DNA of 64,000 nucleotides from Cyanobacteriota bacterium (GTDB taxonomy: Bacteria > Cyanobacteriota > Cyanobacteriia > CACIAM-69d): positions 62,001 through 126,000 of the forward strand of contig JAKRSF010000009.1 of the NCBI GenBank assembly GCA_022402445.1, given 5' to 3'. The notes beneath the pieces are model-generated. The model saw nothing but the letters and a program-made list of their open reading frames with translations. It ran no database searches and was not told the DNA's origin. Positions 24,731 through 50,198 of this stretch are shown here, in pieces. Position numbers and translations under genes: made by a program. Numbering within the stretch: position 1 is the stretch's first letter; every line of letters starts with the position of its first letter.

Positions 24731-24803
24731 GCCGGGATAGCTCAGTCGGTAGAGCAGAGGACTGAAAATCCTCGTGTCGGCGGTTCAAGTCCGCCTCCTG
24801 GCA
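24731..24803 (+). tRNA. tRNA-Phe (GAA)
   Basis: A cloverleaf can be drawn by hand: acceptor GCCGGGA pairs with TCCTGGC, the anticodon stem is GAGGA/TCCTC with loop CTGAAAA and anticodon GAA at 24764-24766, and the T-loop is TTCAAGT. The discriminator base is A at 24803 and no CCA is encoded. Its anticodon loop onward forms the left attachment core of the downstream element, so the element keeps the tRNA functional after integration. Confidence 0.97.
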
Positions 24804-24837
24804 TTCTCTAAAACCCATATCCCGCAAGGGTTTGAGC
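24762..24837. repeat. attL: 76-bp attachment core
   Basis: Identical over 76 bp to 50123-50198. The core starts at the first base of the tRNA-Phe anticodon loop and continues 34 bp past the tRNA 3' end. tRNA genes cut at the anticodon loop are classic targets of tyrosine recombinases (established knowledge). The recombinase gene lies 660 bp inside the element. Confidence 0.95.
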
Positions 24838-25489
24838 GCTTCCGGCTAGGAGGCGTTTTTGCTGTTTTTGGTGGGGGAATTTGGGTGGGATTTTTCGAGG
24901 GCGATGGCGGGGCGATCAGGCTCAATTGGATGGGGTGAGGTTGCCCCCACTGCGCGGCCATGGCGGCGGCTATGCCAGGGAGGGTCTTTGAGCGTTCTTT
25001 CCAGCGATCGCGCGACTCAGGGAGCAAATGCACACGGCCCCGTCGGCCCGCAACGATCGCAGTGGGCTGTAGTGGCGGGAGATTTTTGAGCCAGAAGCAA
25101 GTCGCTTTGGTCTCCCCATGGCCGAACTGCCAGGGCTGGATCACCTGATCCGGCTTTCGGATGTGGGTGCTGAGGATGCCCACAGGATTTTCAATGGCGA
25201 TATGGGGAATGGGTGCGACCATCAGGCACCGCACAAACTCGATGGCCTGATGCTGTTCGTGCTGCTTCTCGTGAAACCAGCGCGCCCCGCTGGTGGCAAG
25301 GTGCTGGCATGGGGGATGAGCGATCATCAAATCCCAGCCCCATCCCAAAATCTCCCGGACATCGCCGCAAATGTGGCGATCCTGGCAACTGTCGGAGGGG
25401 AGCAAGTCGCAGGACCATGCGTCGTGACCCGCTGCCAGGAAGGCATCGCGCACGATGCCCGAAAATTCACAGGCGACCAAAACCTTCAT
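24785..25489 (-). CDS. Phage-type DNA (cytosine-5) methyltransferase-like protein
   Basis: About 234 residues. MKVLVACEFSGIVRDAFLAAGHDAWSCDLLPS is an AdoMet-binding start, WDLMIAHPPCQHLATSGARWF contains the catalytic PPC motif, and PHIAIENPVG matches the ENV-type motif IV/VI. It resembles small orphan methyltransferases of phages and mobile elements. The stop (24785-24787) and last 17 residues lie inside the attachment core, overlapping the tRNA 3' end on the other strand. ATG 25489 is preceded by GAGGAG; it lies 4 bp after the recombinase stop. Confidence 0.85.
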   Translation of the reverse strand: MKVLVACEFSGIVRDAFLAAGHDAWSCDLLPSDSCQDRHICGDVREILGWGWDLMIAHPPCQHLATSGARWFHEKQHEQHQAIEFVRCLMVAPIPHIAIENPVGILSTHIRKPDQVIQPWQFGHGETKATCFWLKNLPPLQPTAIVAGRRGRVHLLPESRDRWKERSKTLPGIAAAMAAQWGQPHPIQLSLIAPPSPSKNPTQIPPPKTAKTPPSRKRSNPCGIWVLENARRRT

Positions 25490-25493
25490 AGGG

Positions 25494-26564
25494 CTACTCC
25501 TCAAACGCCCGCCGCAGATCGTGCATGGTCATCCACAGGCGGTAGATGCGCTCATGGACATAGAGGCTGTGCCCCAGCATTCGGGCGATCACGGCGCTGT
25601 CTTTTTTGCCCAGCCAGTAGATCGCATAGGCATGGCGTAGGTCGTAGGGAGCAAAGGGGCAACCGGCGCGGCGGAATGCGGTGGTGACCCGGTGGCCCAA
25701 GGCGGAATTGTTAGGGCCGCTGCAATCGGGGCGGACGATCGCGGCAAGTTCCCAGTCTTCAAACCACCGCAGGCTGCGGGGATAGGCGATCCGCAGTTTG
25801 CCGGTTTTGCTCTGGGCTGATATTTCGAGCCAGGGGGGATCGATCGCGCGGGCCAAAAACACTTCATGGGGCCGCAGACCGTAGGCGGCGATCGCACCGT
25901 AAACCCATCGCCATTCCGGTTCTTTGAACAGCCGCCGCGCGGCCTCAATTTCGGCGGCGCTGGGCAGGATTCGGGGCGCGGCCATGGCGGGACCGTAGCG
26001 GCCCTGGTATTGCCGCACATCCACCGGGCAGCGGGCAAAGTCTGCCAGGGCTTGAAATGCACGGGCCATGCGTTGCCGCGATCGCGTGTCCGGCTCCGTC
26101 AGCCGTAGCAGGGTTTGGGTCAGGATCTCGGGGGTGAGGGGTTCCGGTAGGGGCAATCGCTTCAGGGGCCGGTAGTAGTCAATTTCCCAGGTGGTGAGGG
26201 TTTTGGGGGTGCGGCGGCGACGGTTGAAGTAGAACTGCTCAAATTCGGCGATCCAGTCGGCGATCGCGCGCTTTTCTGCCCTTGTCCCCCAGTTTTCCCA
26301 CTGGAAGGAACCCCCCAGAATTTCCCGCGATAGGCGACGGGCCAAGCGTTCGGCGGCGCGGATCGCATCGACGGTGGCAGGAAACCCGAGGGCGATCGCG
26401 CGGGTTTTGCTCAGGCCGGCGGGCTCCCCTGGCTTGGGGGGGAGGGGTGCCGTGAGGCTGACAGCTCGAGTTTTGGCGCGCCAATCGACCTTGATCCGGG
26501 CGATCGCGCCATCACGTTTCAGGCGACCGTTGGCCGATCGCAGTTCAAGTTCTGGGTCTGGCAT
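25494..26564 (-). CDS. Tyrosine recombinase (element integrase)
   Basis: A 356-residue protein. The C-terminal catalytic domain shows the first Arg in YGLRPHEV, a Lys in the beta-hairpin (SKTGKLR), box II as YDLRHAYA (Tyr where His is more usual), MLGHS with the second His, and the nucleophile Tyr in ERIYRLW. The N-terminal part (TPKTLTTWEIDYYRPLKRL) fits an arm/core-binding SAM-like domain. It is adjacent to the tRNA-Phe attL and co-directional with the methyltransferase. It is expected to catalyse integration/excision at the 76-bp core. Confidence 0.93.
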   Translation of the reverse strand: MPDPELELRSANGRLKRDGAIARIKVDWRAKTRAVSLTAPLPPKPGEPAGLSKTRAIALGFPATVDAIRAAERLARRLSREILGGSFQWENWGTRAEKRAIADWIAEFEQFYFNRRRRTPKTLTTWEIDYYRPLKRLPLPEPLTPEILTQTLLRLTEPDTRSRQRMARAFQALADFARCPVDVRQYQGRYGPAMAAPRILPSAAEIEAARRLFKEPEWRWVYGAIAAYGLRPHEVFLARAIDPPWLEISAQSKTGKLRIAYPRSLRWFEDWELAAIVRPDCSGPNNSALGHRVTTAFRRAGCPFAPYDLRHAYAIYWLGKKDSAVIARMLGHSLYVHERIYRLWMTMHDLRRAFEE

Positions 26565-26589
26565 GATGGGGGTGTGAATTAGTGGCGGG

Positions 26590-48886: not shown

Positions 48887-48936
48887 CTCTTTAACCCCTG
48901 ATTCCTGGGGTGCGCTGGCGATCGCGCGGCCCCAGG

Positions 48937-49443
48937 ATGACTATTGATCGCCATGCTCCCCGTCTGGCTGCCTGTGGCGGGTGGCCAGACCCCACCCCGC
49001 AGGATCGCGCCATGCAAAGCTTTCTGAACAATTTCAACGAGCGCTTGAGGGATCTTGAGGATCGGTTGGGCGAGCAAATGCAGGCCATGGAAACGCGGCT
49101 GGGTGAGCGAATTGGAAAACTTGAAATACTGATCAATGGATCCGGTGATAGTTTTTTGGCAGTATCCTCGCGGGCCAAATCCGAGATCAAAGCCCTGGCA
49201 TCGCGGCAGACGGAATTACGTGAAGAGGTGAGGCAAAACCTTGCGCGACTTGAGGAGTTGGAGTCTTTGCGCGGCCAAATTCGTGAACTGAAGCGGATCG
49301 CCTCGATCGCCCACATGGTCACCCGAACACCGGGGGGGCTTTATACCTGGTCAGTGCTTTTTATCGGGCTTCTGCTGGTAGTCGATTCGTTTGTGGTGGC
49401 TTTTGGCTTTGATGCGATCGTCCGGGGGCTGCTGGGGCTGTGA
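48937..49443 (+). CDS. Coiled-coil protein with C-terminal membrane anchor
   Basis: About 168 residues from ATG 48937; ATG 49012 (MQSFLNNFNERLRDLED) is a plausible shorter start. Heptads RLGEQMQAMETRLGERIGKLEILI and LREEVRQNLARLEELESLRGQIRELKRI form a long coiled coil. One TM helix TWSVLFIGLLLVVDSFVVAFGF sits at the end. It overlaps the convergent membrane-protein gene by 93 bp. Confidence 0.6.
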   Translation: MTIDRHAPRLAACGGWPDPTPQDRAMQSFLNNFNERLRDLEDRLGEQMQAMETRLGERIGKLEILINGSGDSFLAVSSRAKSEIKALASRQTELREEVRQNLARLEELESLRGQIRELKRIASIAHMVTRTPGGLYTWSVLFIGLLLVVDSFVVAFGFDAIVRGLLGL

Positions 49444-49908
49444 GCGGAAGCGGACGATCATCTCCAGAAAGTAGAGCAGGTGCCACAAGGGGATCCACAT
49501 CAGCAGGGCGAACGCCCCCGCTACGCCAGCCACCTCGTCATCTTGTCCACCGAACAAGGCGATCCATGGCAACATCGCCAGGGCCAGGGATCCCCAGAGG
49601 GCCAGCCAGCCAAACAGGGCTTCCCACAGGCTTTCCGAGGTGAAGGGAACGCGCCAGCGGCTCCAAAGCAGGTTCAACCCTCTCATCAGCAATTGGTGAC
49701 CGATGAAAATGGCTGCGATGCCCAGCAGCGTCCCAAAGGCGGTCATGGCTCCGAACAGGGCGATCGCTTCCTGGGGAGTCTCGACGGTGCCGTAGACGCC
49801 TTCGGGGGCTTGGGCGAAGGGAACCCAGTAACCCACAGCGATGCCGCCTACCACCACCAGCATTCGCCCCCAGATGATCGGCAGTGCCTTGAATACGTTG
49901 AACTTCAT
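49351..49908 (-). CDS. Four-span membrane protein of unknown function
   Basis: About 185 residues from ATG 49908 (AGAGG upstream). Hydrophobic segments: IIWGRMLVVVGGIAVGYWV, IALFGAMTAFGTLLGIAAIFIG, LFGWLALWGSLALAMLPWIALF and VAGVAGAFALLMWIPLWHLLYFL. The C-terminal tail is basic. It is the last gene before attR and runs toward the element interior. No family recognised; a holin-like role is conceivable but unsupported. Confidence 0.7.
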   Translation of the reverse strand: MKFNVFKALPIIWGRMLVVVGGIAVGYWVPFAQAPEGVYGTVETPQEAIALFGAMTAFGTLLGIAAIFIGHQLLMRGLNLLWSRWRVPFTSESLWEALFGWLALWGSLALAMLPWIALFGGQDDEVAGVAGAFALLMWIPLWHLLYFLEMIVRFRSQPQQPPDDRIKAKSHHKRIDYQQKPDKKH

Positions 49909-50122
49909 GGGGGCCTCTGGACGATGATCTCTGTGCTTATTGTCCCCCGCGATCGCGCAGAATTGGTGAGATGGCCCAGGTCCATTCCCAACGTTCCCGG
50001 CGGTGGTTTTGGCCCCTTTCCCTTGGGGGGATCCCCCCTCGTTTTTGGGCGAGTTTGCGCGCGGCAAAAATCCTCACGCTAGAAGGGCCGGTATTTGGTC
50101 GGTCTGGCGTTTGCCCCTTGGG

Positions 50123-50198
50123 CTGAAAATCCTCGTGTCGGCGGTTCAAGTCCGCCTCCTGGCATTCTCTAAAACCCATATCCCGCAAGGGTTTGAGC
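50123..50198. repeat. attR: 76-bp attachment core
   Basis: Identical to 24762-24837. It carries only the anticodon-loop-to-3' part of tRNA-Phe, without the first 31 nt, so it is not a second tRNA. It marks the right end of the element; beyond it the two flanks share only scattered bases. Confidence 0.95.

Follow-up and report, generated by a model that had tools for sequence, protein, structure and literature searches.

A tRNA-Phe-integrated element carrying a gene cassette that recurs across cyanobacteria: a candidate temperate virus-like family

The window, by which we mean the whole stretch of 64,000 nucleotides of a Cyanobacteriota genome that was analysed, contains a tRNA-Phe (GAA) gene at 24731-24803 on the forward strand (ARAGORN; Rfam RF00005) that is the integration target of an element. 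A 76-bp attL core (24762-24837) starts at position 32 of this tRNA, in the anticodon loop, and ends 34 bp beyond its 3' end, and the identical attR core lies at 50123-50198, also on the forward strand. A sequence-only reading had proposed a perfect 76-bp direct repeat from the anticodon loop of tRNA-Phe bounding about 25.4 kb, and an exact-repeat search recovered the same coordinates. This is the longest exact repeat, it is found nowhere else in the 4.08-Mb genome, and an exact match of 76 bases far exceeds chance. From core to next core the element is 25,361 bp long, and its right half has a GC content of 0.57 and a HIP1 density of 1.3 per kb, compared to 0.61-0.63 and 4.1 per kb in the flanks. 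The search for an empty site, which had been suggested as a check, succeeded in part: in two genomes of the same family (G002 and G004) the left-flank gene and tRNA-Phe occur together, and both the element and a second copy of the tRNA are absent, but rearrangement of the right flank means that neither gives a base-exact empty site.

The left part of the element carries genes for integration and replication. A DNA methyltransferase gene (24785-25504, reverse strand; phrog_757, E 1.9e-67) ends inside the attL core and is followed by that of a 356-aa tyrosine recombinase, the integrase (25494-26564, reverse; phrog_1, E 9.3e-9), and a 43%-identical integrase was found at tRNA-Phe in another genome of the same family (G005). 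Upstream of the integrase is a 31-bp tandem repeat (26591-26670, found by TRF) that possibly provides recombination arm sites, and then an HNH endonuclease gene (26683-27087, reverse; phrog_1571, E 5e-20). A 907-aa DUF3987 primase-helicase is encoded at 28252-30975 on the reverse strand (PF13148, E 2.7e-31; phrog_2373; phrog_239, E 1e-11), and a field of iteron-like GATCAACA / GATCGACA repeats at 27605-28420, detected by repeat searches that included TRF, is a candidate replication origin. A 225-aa protein encoded at 32619-33296 on the forward strand had no family match in Pfam or PHROGs and from its divergent position is possibly a regulator; a DUF29 protein is encoded at 33893-34318 on the reverse strand (PF01724, E 1.4e-48).

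Further to the right, a Pro/Ala-rich protein with two C-terminal hydrophobic segments by hydropathy (38523-39236, forward) overlaps the start of a P-loop ATPase with a C-terminal HTH-like end (39230-40471, forward). The best matches of this ATPase family were DUF87/HerA and FtsK; Zot was not among the 25 families listed out of 42, and the window ATPase had no PHROG match to Zot. The nearest approach to a terminase among the window proteins scanned was a chance-level match of this ATPase (E 0.24). The earlier gene calls for the tyrosine recombinase, methyltransferase, HNH protein, DUF3987 primase-helicase and P-loop ATPase were upheld by Pfam and PHROG matches, the ATPase now being placed in the FtsK/HerA group. 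It is homologous, at 26-28% identity, to ATPases of the small cyanobacterial plasmids pDU1 (pNOS7524.02), pMIC7113.05 and pMIC7113.06.

The remainder of the right part, which the sequence-only reading had left unexplained, is not random cargo; it is a cassette that recurs in cyanobacteria and comprises p257, P678, P519, p66, p101, DUP200, p86 and c22. On its left, on the reverse strand, are a 239-aa orphan without a match (40637-41356) and a 288-aa orphan in which the repeat search found Pro-rich repeats (41442-42308), followed by the conserved p257 (42305-43078, reverse), which was found at 22 loci and aligned with its relatives. The genes that follow are on the forward strand. A 68-aa protein (43077-43283) corresponds, by position only, to a small gene that relatives have ahead of P678. 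Comparison with relatives showed P678 (43284-45320) to be conserved, with a Cys-rich N-terminal part, and P519 (45317-46876) to be the most conserved protein of the cassette; the structure model of P519 has a helical N-terminal part followed by an alpha/beta C-terminal domain. Next are the small proteins p66 (46890-47090; 14 loci) and p101 (47235-47540; locus comparison), the two-domain duplicated protein DUP200 (47614-48232; alignment and DNA), the small protein p86 (48238-48498; 21 loci) and a c22-family protein (48455-48886; relatives compared). DUP200 is intact and about 200 aa long in relatives whereas in the window a frameshift breaks it into two parts, 47614-48018 and 48020-48232. The frameshift may be a recent event or a sequencing error, and because of it the window copy may be defective. 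Beyond the cassette, hydropathy indicated a coiled-coil protein that has a membrane segment at its C terminus (49012-49443, forward), which is like the spanin-like c16/c26 proteins of relatives in position only, and a membrane protein with four hydrophobic segments (49351-49914, reverse), which shares with c12 of relatives only its size and topology. No homology was detectable among the slot proteins c6, c13, c27, c37 and p101. The slot held by DUP200 or c18 has been exchanged about three times on the P519 tree, a swapping that by analogy resembles modular phage evolution.

Relatives with the same gene order, which had also been proposed as a check, do exist: a genome of the same family (G003) has the ATPase ... 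p257-P678 and P678-P519-p66-p101-DUP200-p86 on two short contigs. A motif scan of 84,980 bacterial and archaeal species, in which the P519 motif was built on a 10-row subset, the full 28-row alignment being too diverse, found the cassette at 47 loci, all of them cyanobacterial. Its distribution is patchy, with carriers in 26 of the 386 genomes and 20 of the 142 genera of a phylum-wide sample. At ten other sites the cassette is flanked by a tRNA gene and, on the other side, by an exact copy of a segment of that gene, and these elements measure 12.6-25.5 kb; the repeats are 57 bp at tRNA-Thr, 43 and 23 bp at tRNA-Phe, 52, 49 and 48 bp at tRNA-Met, 53 bp at tRNA-Lys, 60 and 47 bp at tRNA-Glu and 37 bp at tRNA-Val, and one genome (G066) has two of the ten. 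Three more carriers are free circles, namely a 12.5-kb contig (L117) whose circularity is indicated by a 127-bp terminal overlap, a Tolypothrix plasmid of 20,757 bp and pMIC7113.08 of 20,803 bp. The window element has P678 and P519 together with p257 and DUP200/p86-type genes, a tRNA repeat and a tyrosine recombinase, the features by which we recognise P678-P519 tRNA elements. As far as seen these elements form an unnamed family of cyanobacteria only, and no published description of it was found in the literature. The ATPase is less constant: it was found at 17 loci and P519 at 33, few of them in common, and in the stretch examined no FtsK/HerA-type ATPase of this kind was seen in most cassette carriers, the 12.6-kb tRNA-Met element among them.

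Other genes of viral type accompany the cassette in relatives, whose loci also carry endolysin families, CII-like and other repressors, and primases. A spanin match was found for the c16/c26 group, L076 encodes a muralytic protein with M23 and SLT domains, c15 is fibre-like with NPHGVT-type repeats, and L089, judged by eye, appears to have a sugar-binding-type tail. Among the genes of the window element no lysis enzyme could be recognised. When its proteins were scanned with Pfam and/or PHROGs, there was no significant match to terminase, portal, tail, relaxase or mating-pore genes, as had been supposed, and among the commonest families and ten large proteins listed for the relatives' loci there was no terminase or portal. 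A portal match in L180 (phrog_21, positions 1017-1314 of 1362) is probably to its DUF5131 protein and was not counted. Nor was a packaging ATPase found that all carriers share.

Searches for a virion protein gave little. Neither an HK97-fold nor a double-jelly-roll major capsid protein was matched by sequence, and structure models covered DUP200 and P519. The DUP200 model is confident (pLDDT 90) but had no match in PDB or BFVD and no chain with Z of 2 or more by VIA-align. The similarity of P519 to tape-measure proteins is weak (PHROG E 0.02; 9e-4 at best among the members scanned), and Foldseek matched it to an unnamed viral protein, A0A510E869, with E 1.2e-6 and probability 1.00 but with a low TM-score of 0.22. 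VIA-align found for P519 only long-helix look-alikes (best Z 7.2, 99 residues aligned at 4.0 A), which barely covered the C-terminal domain of P519. PDB profile searches with DUP200, P519, p257 and P678 gave nothing significant, and 114 cassette-family members had only spanin-like and chance-level matches in Pfam and PHROG. No relatives were found in IMG/VR with P678 or with a P519 motif set, scans that reach only sequences with the chosen short motifs, or by tblastn against 50,697 phage records at up to E 10 for some queries; this absence is odd for an element released as particles. Limited searches found no CRISPR spacers against the cassette, and short matches in L197, L198, L200, L205, L232 and L233 were rejected as spacers because they are not in arrays.

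The explanation that we favour, with some reserve, is that the region is the integrated form of a temperate, virus-like element whose unnamed family occurs, within the genomes covered, in cyanobacteria alone. The lineage most likely stands outside the tailed phages; its chief rival is a satellite equipped with structural genes of its own. We counted for it the tRNA repeat with its integrase, the ten parallel sites, the free circles, the patchy spread through the phylum, the endolysin, repressor, spanin-like and fibre-like companions, the P519 similarities and the slot swapping; against it count the lack of a recognised capsid fold, terminase, portal or shared packaging ATPase, of relatives in IMG/VR and phage records, of CRISPR spacers and of a lysis enzyme in the window. 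From the anatomy and the ten parallel sites, the tyrosine recombinase would put the circle into the 3' half of the tRNA gene, the core restoring the tRNA. The primase-helicase would replicate the excised circle, starting probably at the adjoining iteron-like field; the cassette would then make and mature the particle and its receptor-binding parts, and the endolysin and spanin-like genes added by relatives may serve release. Here the membrane-linked FtsK/HerA-type ATPase may pump DNA during loading, a part for which relatives like the 12.6-kb tRNA-Met element were not seen to have such an ATPase. It is conceivable, though we hold this more tentatively, that the cassette encodes the virion of a lineage unrelated at the sequence level to described bacterial viruses, with new folds (DUP200 at least), genomes that are tRNA-integrated or plasmid-like in many cyanobacterial genera, and terminase-free loading. 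Tailless and filamentous temperate phages, that is tectivirus- and corticovirus-like elements and inovirus prophages (compare PMC11630473), are alike in their small integrated genomes without terminase and, in some, an FtsK/HerA-type ATPase. They differ in that the window family shows, among the families listed, no match to Zot or another hallmark and has no recognised major coat protein, and inoviruses are mostly smaller than the 12.6-25.5 kb of this family.

A phage satellite that integrates at a tRNA, has its own primase and uses the terminase and capsid of a helper, the cassette being a tail, adsorption or capsid-altering module, is the less probable but strongest alternative. PICMI phage satellites have been described (PMC10803314), and PICI, PICMI and P4-like satellites share with the element its size, integrase, primase-helicase, regulators and lack of terminase and portal. 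The size of 12.6-25 kb, the satellite-type primase, the weak tape-measure similarity of P519, the fibre-like genes nearby and the elements in which a packaging-type ATPase was not seen all agree with such a satellite. However, the window family has a large conserved late cassette of about eight genes, lysis-type genes in relatives and free circular replicons of 12.5-20.8 kb, and there was no match to a terminase small subunit or a capsid-remodelling family; to our knowledge the accessory structural genes of known satellites are less extensive than this. The sequence-only reading had likened the layout to tycheposons or satellites, which fits the integration and replication half by analogy, but most of the element consists of its own conserved cassette. 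Tycheposons of Prochlorococcus integrate at tRNA genes by a tyrosine recombinase and carry their own replication gene; their definition rests on cargo and satellite types found in marine picocyanobacteria. The window element is like them in tRNA integration, replication gene and cyanobacterial hosts but has the conserved P678-P519 cassette as its hallmark, tycheposons being set apart by description only.

That the element is plasmid-like and integrative and moves by a DNA pump, the cassette forming a cell-surface or contact structure and not a virion, we regard as improbable. Double-stranded DNA is transferred by such a pump, TraB, in Streptomyces, and the FtsK/HerA-type ATPase, which either has membrane segments or is paired with a membrane protein and which ends in an HTH-like C terminus, would suit this role, as would its relatives on small plasmids, two of which (pMIC7113.05 and pMIC7113.06) have ParM near the ATPase, and the lack of a relaxase match. 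pDU1 and these two free plasmids have no P678-P519 cassette. Against the pump, the ATPase was not seen in the examined stretch of most cassette carriers, and in relatives the cassette occurs with genes of endolysin, spanin-like and fibre-like type. Integrative conjugative and mobilizable elements are likewise alike in tRNA integration, tyrosine recombinase and a HerA/FtsK-class ATPase; they differ in that the window proteins scanned had no Pfam match to relaxase or type IV secretion genes. With the ten other tRNA-bounded cassette sites, and none of the genes that define tailed phages or conjugative elements detected, the earlier description of a tRNA-integrated element of no standard class stands. 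A decayed genomic island with an old tRNA repeat and leftover cargo genes, for which the DUP200 frameshift would speak, is very improbable against a repeat that is perfect across 76 bp, open frames for the integrase and for the other core genes of the cassette, and a cassette that recurs between tRNA repeats throughout the phylum.

If the cassette is a virion, it would mean that a temperate virus lineage spreads across the cyanobacterial phylum, in about 7% of the sampled genomes, and has escaped the phage and viral-contig collections searched, and a role would be found for many "hypothetical proteins" borne on plasmids and islands. Should the element prove to be a satellite, its own structural module would be unusually large. 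Culturable hosts are available for tests, among them Tolypothrix PCC 7601, Allocoleopsis PCC 7113 and Pseudanabaena strains.

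The only tRNA gene of the window, tRNA-Phe(GAA) at 24731-24803, carries at its anticodon loop the perfect 76-bp direct repeat that the sequence-only reading had described, and both copies were confirmed (24762-24837 and 50123-50198). The core starts at tRNA position 32 and extends 34 bp beyond the gene, so that the left tRNA-Phe is intact and the right end repeats only the 3' part; no other match to the core occurs across the 4.08-Mb genome. The methyltransferase, tyrosine recombinase, HNH protein, DUF3987 primase-helicase and P-loop ATPase that had been listed were all verified, the ATPase being of the FtsK/HerA class. 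Adjoining the primase-helicase gene and overlapping its end is an iteron-like field (27605-28420) in which GATCAACA and GATCGACA repeats occur in both orientations, a candidate replication origin, and the 130-aa frame within it (27704-28096) may not be a gene. The GC content and HIP1 density of the cassette half differ from those of the flanks. Elsewhere, a direct repeat (31232-31332 and 31480-31580, 78%) covers the ends of two adjacent small genes, a local duplication; a DUF29 protein (PF01724) is encoded within the element at 33893-34318 and a second DUF29-like frame was seen by eye right beyond attR at 50540-51004.

When a second copy of the tRNA part was searched for in other carriers with enough flank, it was found in ten, and these tRNA-bounded relatives are 12.6-25.5 kb long. 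The repeats are 57 bp at tRNA-Thr (genome G116), 43 bp at tRNA-Phe and 52 bp at tRNA-Met (both G066), 53 bp at tRNA-Lys (G087), 60 and 47 bp at tRNA-Glu (G011 and G051), 49 and 48 bp at tRNA-Met (G141 and G074), 23 bp at tRNA-Phe (G040), and 37 bp at tRNA-Val (G119; locus L092, G119:C1, 5301-5372), where the 5' half and not the 3' half of the tRNA is repeated. Three carriers are circular, namely a 12.7-kb contig whose ends overlap by 127 bp and finished plasmids of 20,757 and 20,803 bp. The search for an empty tRNA-Phe site that the sequence-only reading had proposed succeeded in part: in G002 and G004, of the same family, the left neighbour of tRNA-Phe is that of the window and the element is absent, but the site is not base-exact because the right flank is rearranged. 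In G005, also of this family, an integrase 43% identical to that of the window lies at the same tRNA without the cassette. Its locus L176 (G005:C98, 437-4551) is a small tRNA-Phe island with a related integrase and a 505-aa ATPase with membrane segments, again without the cassette. The single 3.67-Mb contig G066:C1 holds two cassette elements, L079 and L080, at tRNA-Phe and tRNA-Met, whose late cassettes are similar whereas their replication genes and integrases differ. A sequence of about 222 bp (L082, about 14573-14795) is present in dozens of copies per Pseudanabaena genome, 150-800 bp apart, and also in the tRNA-Thr element; GCGATCG motifs are abundant in two examined copies.

The half of the element that had been left unexplained proved to be a conserved cassette that recurs in many related loci. 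Whole-genome searches of 145 related genomes found relatives of P678 in 23 and of P519 in 26, the own genome included in each. The loci were retrieved and iterative profiles were made for each window protein; the left half proved mostly private to this element, and the cassette profiles of the right half matched 34 (P678), 33 (P519), 22 (p257), 21 (DUP200), 21 (p86), 14 (p66) and 5 (p101) loci. Cassette genes of the relatives keep a recognisable order, and a c22 relative follows p86 in the window element. The same gene order was found in G003, where two short contigs carry ATPase ... p257-P678 and P678-P519-p66-p101-DUP200-p86, so that within this branch ATPase and cassette are linked. In a motif scan that covered 84,980 species of bacteria and archaea, one genome each, 47 loci were found, all cyanobacterial by record title. 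P519 is present in 26 of 386 sampled genomes of the phylum (20 of 142 genera), and fewer than half of 26 Pseudanabaena genomes have clear cassette DNA, a patchy distribution as with mobile DNA. The P519 set comprised 52 non-redundant sequences, certain loci having been retrieved twice via different tools. In the P519 tree the DUP200 slot switched about three times to the unrelated c18 and elements from one genome lie far apart, both of which match the behaviour of modular phage genomes.

A Pfam and PHROG scan of 114 cassette-family members gave no convincing match except spanin-like coiled coils. DUP200, of about 200 aa and internally duplicated, gave a confident AlphaFold model from 14 relatives (pLDDT 90, pTM 0.84) with no PDB chain at Z 2 or above and no BFVD match, which is not proof of a new fold. 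In P519 the N-terminal part is modelled as helical and the C-terminal domain, which is predicted well, as alpha/beta; its sole significant BFVD match was the viral protein A0A510E869 (443 aa; E 1.2e-6, with a low TM-score), and its PHROG matches, to tape-measure proteins, were weak. Other genes in the tRNA-bounded relatives match endolysins, primases and repressors (CII-like and others), a muralytic M23+SLT protein adjoins the cassette in locus L076, and in Pseudanabaena elements P519 is followed by fibre-like proteins. Adjoining the cassette of locus L089 (8322-9413) is a 364-aa protein whose terminal stretch reads like a discoidin-type sugar-binding domain; a protein with a malectin domain is similarly placed in the plasmid pMIC7113.08.

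The observations establish the tRNA-repeat layout, the integrase, the replication enzyme, and a cassette that is both conserved and mobile, and we lean towards a self-contained virus. The element would be excised as a circle, copying would start at the iteron field, the cassette would yield a particle with its adsorption parts, and lysis genes, encoded by some members only, would effect release. DNA entry into the particle could, in the window element, be carried out by the FtsK/HerA-class ATPase. Its gene begins within that of a protein carrying two hydrophobic segments, and inovirus Zot was absent among the matches listed for the ATPase family. A relative of the ATPase is encoded at 568-1701 of the 6.4-kb Nostoc plasmid pDU1 (pNOS7524.02; locus L019), the basis of common shuttle vectors. 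The 12.6-kb G074 element shows no such ATPase, and therefore another protein loads its DNA, or a helper supplies this function, or the cassette encodes something other than a virion. A satellite that brings a structural module of its own we consider possible though rather unlikely. That the element is conjugation-like and the ATPase a DNA pump is doubtful, and a decayed island is very improbable. As the sequence-only reading had stated for terminase, portal, tail, relaxase and mating-pore genes, tailed-phage hallmarks, a relaxase and mating-pore genes were not found. DUP200 of the window is broken into two frames, at about 47965-48018, where relatives have a single frame of about 200 aa; the integrase and remaining core cassette genes are open frames and the core repeat is intact. 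The break may mean that this copy is defective, or it may come from an assembly error.

No description of these elements was found in the open-access literature searched. Classed provisionally, by their anatomy, they form a phylum-wide tRNA-targeting family whose orphan late cassette has no relative in the searched virus collections.
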